Shown one piece after another: positions 29,243-36,714 of a DNA stretch of 36,714 bases. The DNA is taken from the NCBI GenBank assembly GCA_016867835.1, contig VGIQ01000012.1, positions 1 through 36,714 on the forward strand. Direction: 5' to 3'. The notes under the pieces were generated by a model. That model was not told the origin of the DNA. It worked only from the letters and a program-made list of their open reading frames with translations, and did not search any database. Position numbers and translations under genes: made by a program. The DNA comes from Calditrichota bacterium (GTDB lineage: Bacteria > Electryoneota > AABM5-125-24 > Hatepunaeales > Hatepunaeaceae). Position 1 is the stretch's first letter, and each line of letters opens with the position of its first letter.

Positions 29243-29920
29243 TTAATAATGCAGTAGCAGCGTCGCCAGACCCGGCTCGGTGAGACGATGCAGCGTCAGG
29301 GCATCGTCGGGCGCGAGCCGGACTGTAATCCTCGCCGCTCCAAACGGCTTGCGCAGCGCCGTCCGGGCCTCGATCACCCGGTTTGCCAATGTTGACCGCG
29401 GCCTCCCTTCTATCTCGCTTACCACATCCATCATCAGGCTCTCGCTCCAGTAGATGCGGAATCGCTCCGGCACGTCGCGCTGGAGTAGTTCCTTCTTCAC
29501 ATTAAGCGCTTCGCTTACGATTGCCAACACCGAGTCAGGGGTCTTCTCCTGCGCGGCAAAGAGGTGCAAGCCGGCTACCGGCCGGACCCAAGTCTTGCTG
29601 CCGCCGGTGAACTTCCGGGTGAACCGGTCGAGATCGCCGCGATCGGACTCGATTAGATCAAGTCGCGTCGTCCAGACCGGCGTCCCCTTGAGGCGCACTT
29701 CCAAAAGCGTATCGGGTACGTTTAGCACCAGATAGGGCTGTCCCGAATCGGCGAGACTCAGTTCGGTTCGCAGGCGGGCGTATTCGACCTCCGGGGAAAG
29801 CGCGCCGCCGGACGGGATCGCGGGCGGCGTTTCCGCCTCGCGCTTGTGACAGCCGACGGCGAGGATAAGCATCACCATCGGCGCCATTCTCAAGATCCGA
29901 GGGTGCAGCCTCGTCCACAA
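29243..29920 (-). CDS. Lipoprotein resembling an L,D-transpeptidase without active site
   Basis: The start is decided by a strong ribosome-binding site, GGGGGAGGA, five bases before a TTG at 29920. This gives 225 residues with a lipoprotein signal (MLILAVGC, Cys24). An ATG at 29887 is second choice; the frame further upstream overlaps the transpeptidase gene. The segment QPYLVLNVPDTLLEVRL followed by VWTTRLDLIE resembles the opening strands of L,D-transpeptidase domains (compare GLYVVIDTHANLLYLR in the neighbour). No HG or SHGC motif follows. The C-terminus, ARITVRLAPDDALTLHRL, may be a closing strand. Probably an envelope pseudo-enzyme or accessory; I know no named family. It is 19 bp after the transpeptidase. 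Confidence 0.7.
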   Translation of the reverse strand: MWTRLHPRILRMAPMVMLILAVGCHKREAETPPAIPSGGALSPEVEYARLRTELSLADSGQPYLVLNVPDTLLEVRLKGTPVWTTRLDLIESDRGDLDRFTRKFTGGSKTWVRPVAGLHLFAAQEKTPDSVLAIVSEALNVKKELLQRDVPERFRIYWSESLMMDVVSEIEGRPRSTLANRVIEARTALRKPFGAARITVRLAPDDALTLHRLTEPGLATLLLHY

Positions 29921-29939
29921 CCCCGTCCTCCCCCTGTCT

Positions 29940-30590
29940 CTATATGATATAGACCGGTGTGCCGTAGGTCGCCCGCTTGAAGAGGAAATCGAGGTCTTCG
30001 TTGCCGAGCCGGACGCAGCCATGCGAGACTGCAACGCCCAGGAGCCGAGTGTAGAGCGTCCCGTGGATGAAATAGCCGTTGCCGAAGCCGAGGGCATACT
30101 TGCCGAGCATATTGGAGTCGTAGCGTTCACGAGGGTCGTCGGGCGGCTTTTCGCCTTCCTCAATGAAGGCCCAGTCAGGCTTGCGCCACCAGGGGTTTTC
30201 GACCCGGCTGTTGATCTTGAAGACGCCCTGTGGGGTGTTGAAAATCCACTTGCGACCGGTCGTCGAATCGGTCAGTTCACCACCGTAACCGGTCGAACAG
30301 GTCGCTTTCATCAGGACCGAGTCCTGCGTTCGCAGGTAGAGCAGATTGGCGTGGGTGTCGATTACGACGTAAAGGCCTTTGGGGCGCAGCGCCGTCAAGG
30401 CTTTCTGAGCGCGCTGCAATTCCCGTTTGGCTGCCTTTGGATCGGACGGAAGTCGAAAGGCTGCCGTGTCAGCAGACGCCAAGTGATGGTTCGCTTCGAT
30501 GATCACCGGTGCTACCGACCGGCCATAGAACCATAGTCCAGTCAGAGCAAGCGGTAGAATGATGGCGAGGATCCAAAGCAACCGCTTCAT
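29940..30590 (-). CDS. L,D-transpeptidase (ErfK/YbiS type)
   Basis: Membrane-anchored periplasmic enzyme of 216 residues that exchanges peptide bonds at meso-diaminopimelate, giving 3-3 cross-links or attaching lipoproteins to peptidoglycan. One N-terminal helix (WILAIILPLALTGLWFY, 6-22) and a short helical hairpin (about 33-68) precede the YkuD catalytic domain (about 73-216). Catalytic residues are His176 (FIHGT), His190 and Cys192 (SHGCVRL). NTPQGVFKI is typical. It overlaps the larger transpeptidase gene by 4 bp, so the two are co-translated. Confidence 0.93.
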   Translation of the reverse strand: MKRLLWILAIILPLALTGLWFYGRSVAPVIIEANHHLASADTAAFRLPSDPKAAKRELQRAQKALTALRPKGLYVVIDTHANLLYLRTQDSVLMKATCSTGYGGELTDSTTGRKWIFNTPQGVFKINSRVENPWWRKPDWAFIEEGEKPPDDPRERYDSNMLGKYALGFGNGYFIHGTLYTRLLGVAVSHGCVRLGNEDLDFLFKRATYGTPVYII

Positions 30591-31663
30591 AGGTCTTTCC
30601 CATCATAGCGGCGGACGATGGTAACCGGGGTGCCGACCCGGACGTGGGGTATCAGATTGTCCATATCGCTGTTGGCGAGAGCGACGCAGCCATCGGTCCA
30701 GTCCCGGCCGTGACCGCCATCGCCGTGGATTTCAATAAGCCCGCCGATGCGGGCATTGCGTGAGATGATGCCGCGCCGTTTATTCTCTTCGAACCGCTTC
30801 CGATCAGAGTCGTTCGGATAGTTGATGAGCAAGGCGCGGTAAAACTTGCTGTTGCCGTCCTTCACCTTGGAGATTTGATACTGACCCTCGGGCGTCGCGC
30901 CGTCTCCGGAAAAGTGCTTCTGGCTGGCTGAGTTGTAGCCGACGTCGCTGGCGTAGGTCCGGACCGTTTTTCCATTCTTAATAAGATAAGTCCGGTGTGC
31001 AGTCTTATCGACGATGATGGCGGGGGCGTCGTTGTCGCGTGACCAGGCGATAGTCTCCTCTACCCAATTTCGCCACTGAATCATTTGGGTCGCTTCATGA
31101 TTGGCTTGCTCGGCAAGAAGAGCGCCAACGCGGGCAAGCGCCTTGCGCCCGAGAGCCGCCGACTTGACAGCTTCAGTATATTCGCCATCCTGAAACAGCC
31201 GGCGCGCGGTGCGGAGGTGCATCCCGGCTTGGGACCACCAGCGCTCAGCGCTGTAGAGGATGAGGGTGCCGTTGAGCGCCTCCCGCCATATCTTCAGTTC
31301 CTCTTCCAGGCCAATGTAGGCTTCGCGGGCCTGCAGTTCCTGCAGGGCAAGGGAATCGAGAGCAGCGCGAGCGCCCCGTTCAGCCCAGATCTCGGCCGCA
31401 AGCAGGATCGAGTCCGCCCGAGTGTAGTTGCGAAAGAGGTAGATCCGGCCGTTCTGGCGACCGATTTCGTTCCAGCCGATGGCAATCAGATGCTCGGCGT
31501 TGCGGTAGGCCGTTTCGGAGTGGCGAATCGCGCCTGAGCGACGGGCGCGTTCGAGCGCGTCGCGGGCGTTCTGAAGCCGGGCCATCGGGGGAGCCGGAGC
31601 CTCGAAAAGGCCGCAGCCGGCAAGGAAGAGCGTCAGGGCGAGCGTCGGGAGCAGTCTAAACAA
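30587..31663 (-). CDS. L,D-transpeptidase lipoprotein (YafK-like) with helical domain paralogous to neighbour
   Basis: The 358 residues start with a lipoprotein signal (TLFLAGC, Cys17). Residues about 27-195 are helical and align along their whole length with the lipoprotein at 32017-32616: AYRNAEHL with AYRTANDT, YLFRNYTRAD with ALFRSYSGSK, LFQDGEYTEAVKS with DYNNGKYLTARSK. Residues about 213-355 are a YkuD/YafK-type catalytic domain with ATPEGQYQI, His313 in EIHGDG and Cys326 in WTDGCVALAN. The usual Arg after the catalytic Cys motif is Ala, as in YafK-like enzymes. The arrangement suggests an outer-membrane-anchored transpeptidase that recognises its partner lipoprotein through a shared helical fold. 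Confidence 0.92.
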   Translation of the reverse strand: MFRLLPTLALTLFLAGCGLFEAPAPPMARLQNARDALERARRSGAIRHSETAYRNAEHLIAIGWNEIGRQNGRIYLFRNYTRADSILLAAEIWAERGARAALDSLALQELQAREAYIGLEEELKIWREALNGTLILYSAERWWSQAGMHLRTARRLFQDGEYTEAVKSAALGRKALARVGALLAEQANHEATQMIQWRNWVEETIAWSRDNDAPAIIVDKTAHRTYLIKNGKTVRTYASDVGYNSASQKHFSGDGATPEGQYQISKVKDGNSKFYRALLINYPNDSDRKRFEENKRRGIISRNARIGGLIEIHGDGGHGRDWTDGCVALANSDMDNLIPHVRVGTPVTIVRRYDGKDL

Positions 31664-31699
31664 GCCGGATCCGATTCCTTAAGGCAGAAGGTAGAGGGA

Positions 31700-31738
31700 A
31701 ATAGTCCGCGGGAAGTGGGAAGGCGACAGTGTCGTTTG
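31700..31738. repeat. 39-bp direct repeat, copy 1
   Basis: Starts aatagtccgcgggaagtggg and matches 31866-31904 at 38 of 39 positions. It contains the small palindrome CGACAGTGTCG. It lies 37 bases upstream of the large transpeptidase start. Confidence 0.85.
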
Positions 31739-31749
31739 AATGATTCGTG

Positions 31750-31826
31750 GTGTCAGGTGTCTCACCTGACACTGACATGCCTTATTAACAATTACTTCCC
31801 GACGGGTGAGGACACCCGACGGCACA
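31750..31826. repeat. Pair of REP-like hairpins between the direct repeats
   Basis: GTGTCAGGTG-tct-CACCTGACAC (31750-31772) and, 27 bases on, CGACGGGTG-agga-CACCCGACG (31800-31821, imperfect). The loops and stems resemble those of 24117-24177. The two hairpins are further apart than in the other elements. Confidence 0.65.
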
Positions 31827-31865
31827 CCCCAGCGCATTCCGAGGCAGTCTGAAACGGCAAAAGGC

Positions 31866-31904
31866 AATAGTCCGCGGGAAGTGGGAAGGCGACAATGTCG
31901 TTTG
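31866..31904. repeat. 39-bp direct repeat, copy 2
   Basis: Second copy of 31700-31738, differing by one base (ACAATGT for ACAGTGT). Together the copies bracket a 127-bp segment with two hairpins. Confidence 0.85.
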
Positions 31905-31959
31905 CATAACTGGAGTCCTCCCCTCCGGGCTTCTTCCTCTATCTTTCATCCTTACGAGA

Positions 31960-31987
31960 AGGGGGTCGTCGTTGCCGGCGACCCCCT
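31960..31987 (-). terminator. Hairpin after the helical lipoprotein gene
   Basis: AGGGGGTCG (31960-31968) and CGACCCCCT (31979-31987) form a 9-bp stem 30 bases past the stop codon at 32017. There is no T-run on the minus strand. It may be an attenuator that gives more lipoprotein than transpeptidase. Confidence 0.45.
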
Positions 31988-32016
31988 CCTCTCGGTTCGG
32001 TCGTGCGGGGCGTCGG

Positions 32017-32616
32017 TTAGCGCTTGCCGCCTTTGGCCATGGCTTTGGCTTGCTCGATTTGTTGCATGATGGACGCAGTCCGCTGCATCACGGCATTCAC
32101 TTTGGAGCGCGCCGTGAGATACTTACCGTTGTTGTAGTCCATCTGGGCGTCGTCGTAAGCCGTCATCGTCGATGCGAGATCGTTCTTGATCAACTCGATG
32201 TCCGCTTTGTTGCCTTTGCCGACGGGCGCTTTGGCGAGCGCGGCGGAGGCGGAATCGAGGTCGCTCTTGGCCTGGGTTAACATCCCTTCGACTTCCGCCT
32301 TCACGCGGGCCTTTTCGGTCGCGGCGGCGGTTGCAGCCTCCTTGGCCAGCGCCTCAGCGCGAACAAAGAGGTTCTTCGAGCCGGAGTAACTACGGAAGAG
32401 CGCGAATTTCGCATCCTGTTCAGCCTTGGCTGCAGAAGCAGCGCCGAGCGTGTCGTTGGCCGTGCGATAGGCTTTGGGCGCGTATTGCTCGGCTTCGGCG
32501 GACTTGGCGGCGGCGAGGGCGTCGTTGGCAGCCTTCATTTCCATTTCGGGCGGCTTCGAGCAACCGACGACCACCAGCAGGGCAAGCGCCAGCGCGAATT
32601 TGCCGTAACGGATCAT
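32017..32616 (-). CDS. Alpha-helical lipoprotein (DUF4398-like), possible peptidoglycan tether
   Basis: With the ATG at 32616 it has 199 residues; AAGGA lies 8 bases upstream. The longer frame to 32676 would begin inside the predicted promoter. Residues 1-19 are a lipoprotein signal (LALLVVVGC, Cys19). The rest is nearly all Ala/Lys/Glu-rich helix (about 30-190), of the DUF4398 type, with no catalytic motif. The C-terminus ends in GGKR, so a lysine lies one residue from the end. It is paralogous along its length to the N-terminal half of the next transpeptidase. A Braun-lipoprotein-like role, held in the outer membrane and joined to peptidoglycan by the neighbouring enzymes, is my inference. 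Confidence 0.82.
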   Translation of the reverse strand: MIRYGKFALALALLVVVGCSKPPEMEMKAANDALAAAKSAEAEQYAPKAYRTANDTLGAASAAKAEQDAKFALFRSYSGSKNLFVRAEALAKEAATAAATEKARVKAEVEGMLTQAKSDLDSASAALAKAPVGKGNKADIELIKNDLASTMTAYDDAQMDYNNGKYLTARSKVNAVMQRTASIMQQIEQAKAMAKGGKR

Positions 32617-35999: not shown

Positions 36000-36396
36000 G
36001 TTTTGAGCATAAGGCTCAAGGTGAGGAAGTTCGCGGAGGGGCGGATTCCAATCCGCCCATCTTGGGAGTGACTTATCGCGTAGGGGCGGATTCCGATCCG
36101 CCCGTTTGGGGAGTGACTTATCGCGTAGGGGCGGATTCCAATCCGCCCGTTTGGGGAGTGACTTATCGCGTAGGGGCGGATTCCGATCCGCCCGTTTGGG
36201 GAGTGACTTATCGCGTAGGGGCGGATTCCGATCCGCCCGTTTGGGGAGTGGCTTATCGCGTAGGGGCGGATTCCGATCCGCCCGTTTGGGGAGTGGCTTA
36301 TCGCGGAGGGGCGGATTCCGATCCGCCCGTTTGGGGAGTGGCTTATCGCGGAGGGGCGGATTCCGATCCGCCCCTGCACGATTATTCTACACGCCT
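36000..36396. other. Convergent intergenic region occupied by the hairpin array
   Basis: It lies between the 3' ends of the DUF2723 gene (plus) and a T9SS cargo gene (minus). The array at 36039-36373 fills it almost completely. Three overlapping open frames here arise only because 45 is a multiple of 3. Confidence 0.8.
36039..36373. repeat. Tandem array of eight hairpins, 45-bp period
   Basis: The 20-bp hairpin GGGCGGATTCCGATCCGCCC (loop TCCG or TCCA) starts at 36039, 36084, 36129, 36174, 36219, 36264, 36309 and 36354. The 25-bp spacers are nearly identical (GTTTGGGGAGTG(A/G)CTTATCGCG(T/G)A); variants are shared by neighbouring units, which points to stepwise duplication. The 8-bp stems are perfect. 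Confidence 0.95.
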
Positions 36397-36714
36397 TTAC
36401 TTCACCAGCAGCGCCTTCGCGGTGGCGGTTCGGCCCGATGCCTCCAGCCGCACCAGATAGACCCCCGACGGCAACCCACCGGCATCCCACGCCAGCCGGT
36501 GCTTCCCCGCACCATAATAACCATCCGCAACCACCCCCACCTCCCGGCCCGTCCCGTCCATCACCCCCAGACGCGCCAGACCCGCCTCACCCAACCCAAA
36601 CTCCACCCCCAAGCGCCCGTTGAAAGGATTCGGATAGAGCGCCCTTAAGCCAAACCCAACCGGCACCGCGACTTCACCAGCACCCTCCACCCGCAGCACC
36701 CCCCACCCACCCCC
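36397..36714 (-). CDS. C-terminal part of a T9SS-exported protein, cut by window edge
   Basis: The minus-strand frame is open to the window end, so only the last 105 residues or so are visible. They form a type IX sorting domain: LYPNPFNGRLGVEFGL, VMDGTGREVGVV, GKHRLAWDAGGLPSGVYLVRLEA and a closing ATAKALLVK. This is the same domain type as the end of the 794-residue protein at 11846-14230. A GTG at 36699 is not a real start, since the frame continues upstream. Confidence 0.85.
   Translation of the reverse strand, partial: GGGWGVLRVEGAGEVAVPVGFGLRALYPNPFNGRLGVEFGLGEAGLARLGVMDGTGREVGVVADGYYGAGKHRLAWDAGGLPSGVYLVRLEASGRTATAKALLVK

Follow-up and report, generated by a model that had tools for sequence, protein, structure and literature searches.

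Known lipoproteins that tie the outer membrane covalently to the cell wall are Lpp, in a subclade of Gammaproteobacteria, LimB, and a protein of Pseudomonas (PMC8263019, PMC12274547). DpaA hydrolyses the bond between Lpp and peptidoglycan (PMC8263019, PMC10653827), and DpaA-like proteins have been found in Acidobacteria, Bacteroidetes and others that lack Lpp, where the question of their substrate has been asked (PMC8263019). On the minus strand of the window, i.e., the whole 36,714-nt stretch analyzed here, ORF calls place four neighboring genes: a lipoprotein, LDT1, LDT2 and gene 4 (Table 1), a cassette of which we found no earlier description in the literature. Could these genes encode a tether of the Braun type although the lineage lacks Lpp, as the original prediction held?

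Cassette organization and distribution

Table 1. Features of the cassette, in coordinates of the 36,714-nt window.
Feature	Coordinates	Strand	Description	Basis
Lipoprotein	32017..32616	-	199 aa; lipobox VVGC-SKPPE, long helical stalk, APxGK loop, basic tail KGGKR	ORF, orthologues
APVGK loop (lipoprotein residues 130-134)	32215..32229	-	Predicted distal turn after helix 3; Lys134 nearly invariant; candidate attachment lysine	
KGGKR tail (lipoprotein residues 195-199)	32020..32034	-	C-terminal; holds proposed attachment lysine	Lys enrichment in orthologues
RNA hairpin	31956..31991	-	In 353-bp gap after lipoprotein	Fold -31.6 kcal/mol, z=-3.4
LDT1	30587..31663	-	358 aa, TTG start; N-terminal stalk paralogous to lipoprotein, plus YkuD domain of DpaA/L,D-carboxypeptidase type	
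LDT1 stalk domain (about residues 18-205)	31049..31612	-	Predicted all-helical	hhalign
LDT1 catalytic domain	30617..31021	-	Lys249 (= DpaA Lys83), His313, Cys326	
LDT2	29940..30590	-	216 aa; YkuD L,D-transpeptidase, SHGCVRLGN motif, Cys192	PF03734
Gene 4	29243..29887	-	214 aa; lipoprotein, degenerate YkuD-like fold, no catalytic His/Cys	

The start of LDT2 and the stop of LDT1 share four bases (an ATGA overlap), and the best start for gene 4 was 29887. Promoter and terminator scans stayed at or near chance level, with no terminator-like match on the strand of the hairpin; the hairpin itself is strong and lacks a good T-run, making a terminator or processing role possible only. Codon adaptation of the lipoprotein gene (0.674) was the highest of 26 window genes tested, yet within the ribosomal range, and does not clearly mark a protein of very high abundance.

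The order lipoprotein-LDT1-LDT2-gene 4 was found in all 11 genomes of the phylum that have the cassette (39 examined; one locus split by a contig break) and also in Zixibacteria, Acidobacteriota, Bacteroidota, Nitrospirota, Desulfuromonadales and Latescibacterota MAGs, so that the conserved neighborhood predicted for related genomes was recovered and extends to many other phyla that are little studied. When loci were found by lipoprotein motifs alone, the order was kept in about 70 of 80, exceptions lying mostly at contig ends. Further loci were sought by scanning genome contigs with the lipoprotein alignment as query; a single LDT1 sequence used as query gave none. A plasmid search returned partial matches only, and no record covering 80% of LDT1 was found. 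Across three sampled groups (11/39 genomes positive in the phylum, 20/149 and 13/98), the lipoprotein and full-length LDT1 occurred in an identical set of 44 of 286 genomes. The lipoprotein was present without a linked LDT1 in a few genomes (L142, L162 and L163), and since only 2 of 295 genomes were positive in a class-wide Bacteroidia sample, the system is patchy. LDT1 and LDT2 are the sole YkuD proteins of the window genome, as in 10 of the 11 cassette-bearing genomes of the phylum. Lpp (PF04728) was detected in 0 of 39 phylum genomes, the E. coli control being positive, and the locus is still best read as a Braun-type tether of bacteria that lack Lpp.

The lipoprotein and LDT1 share a stalk

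BLASTP of the lipoprotein against LDT1 gave E=2e-10, and hhalign of the two 11-sequence families aligned lipoprotein residues 3-187 with LDT1 residues 2-183 (179 columns, E=4e-16; 2.4e-11 for the mature parts, signal peptides removed), in agreement with the resemblance originally reported between the lipoprotein and the N-terminal helical region of LDT1. Reversed profiles reached 0.035-0.046 and the best of 60 column shuffles 0.078. In a tree of 30 + 30 sequences, a single branch (89/99) split all lipoproteins from all LDT1 N-domains, with the order of phyla mirrored on both sides; hence, judged from sequence, the two are true paralogues from one old duplication. Chance similarity of Ala-rich helices is ruled out by the reversed and shuffled profiles and the one-branch tree. 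The LDT1 stalk is predicted to be all-helical (helices 81-132 and 162-211), and by homology to this model the rod of the lipoprotein is predicted to be helical as well.

Paralogous stalks could also mean that the lipoprotein has no covalent link and instead serves LDT1 as a structural or regulatory partner, docking it in a hetero-oligomer and positioning LDT1 and LDT2 for peptidoglycan remodelling. Divergence of the two proteins is correlated as such docking would have it (r=0.95, for part of which shared ancestry alone accounts). However, this reading leaves both the lysine tail of the lipoprotein and the DpaA-like active site of LDT1 unexplained, and we consider it rather unlikely.

The YkuD proteins and gene 4

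LDT2 matched PF03734 with E=4.6e-24 (86.1 bits against a cut-off of 23.4) and bears the SHGC motif, of which H190, G191 and C192 were kept in 70/70 sequences. Its top NCBIfam matches were L,D-transpeptidases, at scores under the equivalog cut-offs of LdtA (43.6 vs 583 bits), LdtB (38.8 vs 517) and LdtE (38.5 vs 480). The protein has a hydrophobic N-terminus without a lipobox, a predicted membrane anchor, and no lipoprotein-like stalk domain. LDT2 is a canonical SHGC transpeptidase that fits the LdtA/B/E type.

LDT1 also matched PF03734 (E=1.3e-19). Among loci of many phyla, K249 was kept in 72/72, H313 in 70 of 71 aligned and C326 in 70/71, the remaining one having Ser. Its closest relative of solved structure by sequence was DpaA (8IKR; E=1.2e-6); Lys249 corresponds to the substrate-binding Lys83 of DpaA, and an equivalent of the catalytic Cys143 is also present. 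The score against the DpaA equivalog NF040599 (E=4e-6) was 26.1 bits, short of the curated cut-off of 365, so the activity is a putative one; LDT1 is best placed with the DpaA/L,D-carboxypeptidase type, i.e., among the enzymes that release Braun lipoprotein from the wall. The original prediction made LDT1 the dedicated enzyme that tethers the lipoprotein. While the shared stalk on which that pairing was built proved paralogous, LDT1 is an unlikely attaching enzyme because DpaA is its nearest relative of solved structure by sequence and the transpeptidase signature lies in the stalk-less LDT2.

A carboxypeptidase assignment could be taken further: LDT1 as an L,D-carboxypeptidase and LDT2 as a 3-3 cross-linker would give a wall-trimming operon accompanied by a structural lipoprotein anchored in the outer membrane. 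LDT1 is related just as closely to Csd6-like L,D-carboxypeptidases as to DpaA, Bd1075 (7o21) was the top Foldseek match of its predicted structure, and LDT2 also resembles LdtE. Yet LDT1 has a nearly invariant Glu311 where Csd6 has the carboxypeptidase-specific Trp158 of its D-Ala pocket, and wall trimming sits poorly with a lipoprotein and LDT1 that are inseparable across the 286 sampled genomes. We regard such an operon as decidedly improbable.

Gene 4 had no family match in a Pfam search, and no member of its family had a Pfam YkuD match. Foldseek with its AlphaFold model (pLDDT 76.5) returned L,D-transpeptidases with probability 1.00 and E about 1e-4, yet with a TM of only about 0.35. The transpeptidase likeness first noted for gene 4 is therefore retained as predicted fold and weak profile match only; no conserved catalytic His or Cys was found in the family, which rules out an active transpeptidase. 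Other phyla also have a gene at this position, and a catalytically dead YkuD-like partner is the best model for it.

Candidate attachment lysines

The lipobox Cys was kept in 11/11 phylum orthologues of the lipoprotein, which had no PF04728 match in a Pfam search. Lipoprotein and LDT1 stalk scored 12.4 and 13.1 bits against DUF4398 (PF14346), below the Pfam cut-off of 27.9; weak matches occurred in 7/11 orthologues (best 1.5e-5), and in Desulfuromonadales a related DUF4398 stalk bears a LysM wall-binding domain. The tail lysine pointed out in the original prediction is present in GGKR, where it is penultimate and the last residue is Arg. Among 78 scan orthologues, Lys was the last residue in 53 (background 11%) and lay within the last four in 75 (background 31%), so that nearly all homologues carry a lysine at or near the C-terminus; the counts were 14/28 and 27/28 for representatives below 60% identity, and 19/30 and 29/30 in an independent set. 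Mere composition is ruled out, Lys making up 12% of the protein and 68% of last positions. About one-third of orthologues, that of the window included, lack a terminal Lys. In Dickeya, one C-terminal Lys is enough for attachment (PMC12274547), and deletion of the terminal Lys of Lpp lowered attachment about 50-fold.

The lysine of the APxGK loop, instead of the tail, may be the attachment residue. The same tether system would then be linked via Lys134 at the long helix's tip, much as LimB of Coxiella is attached by an internal lysine, and the basic tail would only bind wall or enzyme. Pro131, Gly133 and Lys134 were each kept in 30/30 of the independent set, AP.GK occurred in 77/81 lipoproteins vs 0/72 LDT1 N-domains, and in almost all lipoproteins 108-110 residues separate the loop from the lipidated Cys, a nearly constant distance while tail length varies. 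Nevertheless, the near-universal Lys-rich tail would require another reason, and a C-terminal Lys is the attachment point of Lpp, OutB and Lpp-box fusions; we hold linkage through Lys134 to be unlikely.

Proposed tether cycle

We favor, with a probability of roughly 0.5, a self-contained cycle tethering outer membrane to peptidoglycan, in which LDT2 attaches, LDT1 releases and gene 4 regulates. The lipoprotein, lipidated at Cys19 and presumably located in the outer membrane, would be the tether, its helical stalk of fixed length presenting the lysines of basic tail and APxGK loop at the far end. LDT2, anchored in the inner membrane, would form an amide between the peptidoglycan stem (meso-Dap, position 3) and a tether lysine. 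LDT1, lipid-anchored on the duplicated stalk, would hold its DpaA-type active site at about the height of that lysine and hydrolyse the amide, and gene 4 would probably regulate LDT1 or LDT2. More tentatively, the cassette may represent a widespread covalent tether unrelated to Lpp, whose own ruler-length stalk was copied and fused to a DpaA-type domain to give the releasing enzyme. Enzyme and substrate would then have anchor and height in common and might form a mixed helical bundle, and a pseudoenzyme would act as regulator.

Comparison with known systems

The cassette is a candidate counterpart of the E. coli Braun lipoprotein system in Lpp-less bacteria. It offers a candidate substrate next to a DpaA-like enzyme, in the very groups for which the substrate question was raised, and adds candidates for the attaching enzyme and for a regulator. 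If true, at least some Lpp-less bacteria would thereby have a substrate for their DpaA-like enzymes, which can be tested directly in cultured Desulfuromonadales or Prolixibacteraceae.

Coxiella LimB and the alpha- and gammaproteobacterial OMPs offer another parallel, as LDTs join these outer-membrane proteins to Dap in bacteria without Lpp. LimB is attached via an internal Lys, whereas the OMPs are attached via their N-terminal Ala/Gly. DUF4398 lipoproteins share the lipobox and a PPxxEL...A helical hairpin in weak matches, but the cassette lipoprotein has a longer stalk, the APxGK loop and tail, and no LysM domain. With DpaA (LdtF/YafK, PDB 8IKR), LDT1 shares the GDxxTPEG signature, the Lys83 equivalent and the HG..GC active site; DpaA, however, has no stalk domain, and in LDT1 the Met133 position is occupied by Glu and the score stays below the equivalog cut-off. 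Like Lpp with LdtA/B/C and DpaA in E. coli, the cassette combines an outer-membrane-type lipoprotein, a predicted helical rod and a C-terminal Lys region with an SHGC transpeptidase and a DpaA-class YkuD protein. It differs in that its lipoprotein is unrelated to Lpp, being 199 aa long with no PF04728 match, that all genes lie in one cassette far outside Gammaproteobacteria, that its DpaA-class enzyme is a lipoprotein too and is built on a duplicated tether stalk, and that a fourth, apparently dead YkuD-like member is added.

Paralogy and organization of the cassette

The original prediction held that the helical region of the lipoprotein recurs in the N-terminal domain of LDT1, a lipoprotein that also carries a YkuD domain, and this relationship was borne out. 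BLASTP of the pair gave E=2e-10, and profiles built from 11 orthologues each matched at E=4e-16 over 179 columns (2.4e-11 without signal peptides), against 0.035-0.046 for reversed profiles and 0.078 for the best among 60 column-shuffled profiles. A maximum-likelihood tree built from 60 sequences separates lipoproteins from LDT1 stalks by a single branch (89/99), and phylum order is broadly mirrored within both groups, which places one duplication ahead of their dispersal across phyla. The stalks of LDT1 have evolved more rapidly than the lipoproteins.

Cassette genes in the window
Feature	Position	Strand
Lipoprotein	32017-32616	minus
LDT1	30587-31663	minus
LDT2	29940-30590	minus
Gene 4	29243-29887	minus

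The lipoprotein lies 52-425 bp upstream of LDT1; in the window the gap is 353 bp and contains a strong hairpin. A perfect 27-bp direct repeat (31701-31727 and 31867-31893) also lies there, with no other copy in the window. In the window, LDT1 and LDT2 share four bases (ATGA), an overlap also seen in 7 of the 11 cassette-bearing phylum genomes; the remainder have junctions of -1, -25 or +53 bases. Elsewhere, a 45-bp tandem repeat (36031-36373; 7-8 copies, 96% matches) adjoins a gene end (36397-36699) whose product by eye resembles a secretion/sorting-type C-terminal domain.

Distribution

The co-occurrence of these genes, which the original prediction named as a check, was also confirmed. Lipoprotein (strong hits) and LDT1 were found in the identical 11 of 39 phylum genomes, together with LDT2 and gene 4 in a constant arrangement; one cassette spans a contig break. 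Cassette-less genomes mostly have no YkuD protein, and any present is of a different kind. Lipoprotein and full-length LDT1 likewise occurred in exactly the same 20 of 149 genomes sampled from one Bacteroidota order and the same 13 of 98 from the order of a Desulfuromonas genome; the system is patchy, with 2/295 in a class-wide Bacteroidia sample. A GTDB genome scan using lipoprotein motifs only returned 80 loci, titled Zixibacteria, Calditrichota, Acidobacteria, Bacteroidetes, Nitrospirae, Desulfuromonadales, KSB1, Lindowbacteria, Eisenbacteria and Latescibacterota, although such MAG titles are unreliable taxonomy. LDT1 lay downstream of the lipoprotein in 71; the other nine comprised six contig breaks, one rearrangement (L142) and two loci having LDT2 without linked LDT1. 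In the latter (L162, L163), a tandem lipoprotein pair precedes LDT2, and one genome carries LDT1 on a separate contig.

Lysines and stalk of the lipoprotein

Lysine is the last residue in 53 of 78 complete lipoprotein orthologues and falls within the last four in 75, compared with 11% and 31%, respectively, among 386 neighbouring genes; no C-terminal lysine pattern of this sort was seen for LDT1, LDT2 or gene 4 of these loci. Among 30 orthologues gathered without motif selection, the counts were 19 and 29. In a rival reading, attachment would proceed through the internal APxGK loop (Lys134), whose lysine is present in 30/30 of that set; the loop was found in 77/81 of the scan set and in 0/72 LDT1 N-domains. 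The loop lies 108-110 residues from the lipidated Cys in nearly all lipoproteins, while a variable stretch of 60 to 87 residues separates it from the C-terminus. Helices of the LDT1 model measure 52 and 50 residues, ~75 Angstrom each (computed at 1.5 Angstrom/residue). We infer that the lipoprotein is a fixed-length stalk with lysines at its distal end.

In Desulfuromonas-order lipoproteins (L168-L173), a related short stalk of the DUF4398 hairpin type is fused with a LysM domain; these are possibly non-covalent outer-membrane tethers, and they show that such stalks can be paired with wall-binding heads. Short DUF4398-like lipoproteins (114-141 aa) also occur in phylum members (L032, L033, L034, L046), three without the cassette; in these proteins the APxGK loop is missing, as is most of the stalk.

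Catalytic domains and comparison with known systems

LDT1 and LDT2 are the only YkuD proteins in the window genome. LDT2 has an SHGC motif, best matches among L,D-transpeptidases, and a hydrophobic N-terminus without a lipobox. Gene 4 has a YkuD-like predicted fold with low TM-scores and lacks the catalytic His and Cys; a gene of this type occupies the same position at many other loci.

By sequence, the solved structure nearest the LDT1 catalytic domain was 8IKR (E=1.2e-6), which is DpaA (PMC10653827), an amidase releasing Lpp from peptidoglycan (PMC8263019); Csd6 was next. The top fold match was Bd1075, classed with L,D-carboxypeptidases (PMC10653827). Counting along the DpaA alignment from Cys143, LDT1 Lys249 (conserved 72/72) takes the position of DpaA Lys83, and Glu311 that of Csd6 Trp158 and DpaA Met133 (69/71 aligned). 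Like DpaA, LDT1 therefore lacks one half of the D-Ala pocket of carboxypeptidases, which favours a putative amidase activity. In two genomes, the lipidated Cys of LDT1 (L056, L057) is followed by Asp (CDT), a residue that would tend to keep a lipoprotein in the inner membrane in E. coli; in another (G010), the lipobox Cys is lost.

In the proposed tether system, LDT2 would attach the lipoprotein and LDT1 would detach it, the common stalk setting the releasing active site at bond height; the two stalks may also form a joint bundle. Besides attachment through the APxGK loop, rival readings are non-covalent scaffolding by the lipoprotein and plain wall trimming by the cassette. DpaA-like proteins have been reported from Lpp-less phyla with no substrate assigned (PMC8263019), and we found no description of the cassette in the literature on DpaA, DUF4398 and outer-membrane tethers, a coverage mostly outside subscription journals. 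The lipoprotein, tested for membership of the Lpp family, falls outside it. The cassette would work like Lpp/Ldt/DpaA, but with a tether that is not an Lpp.
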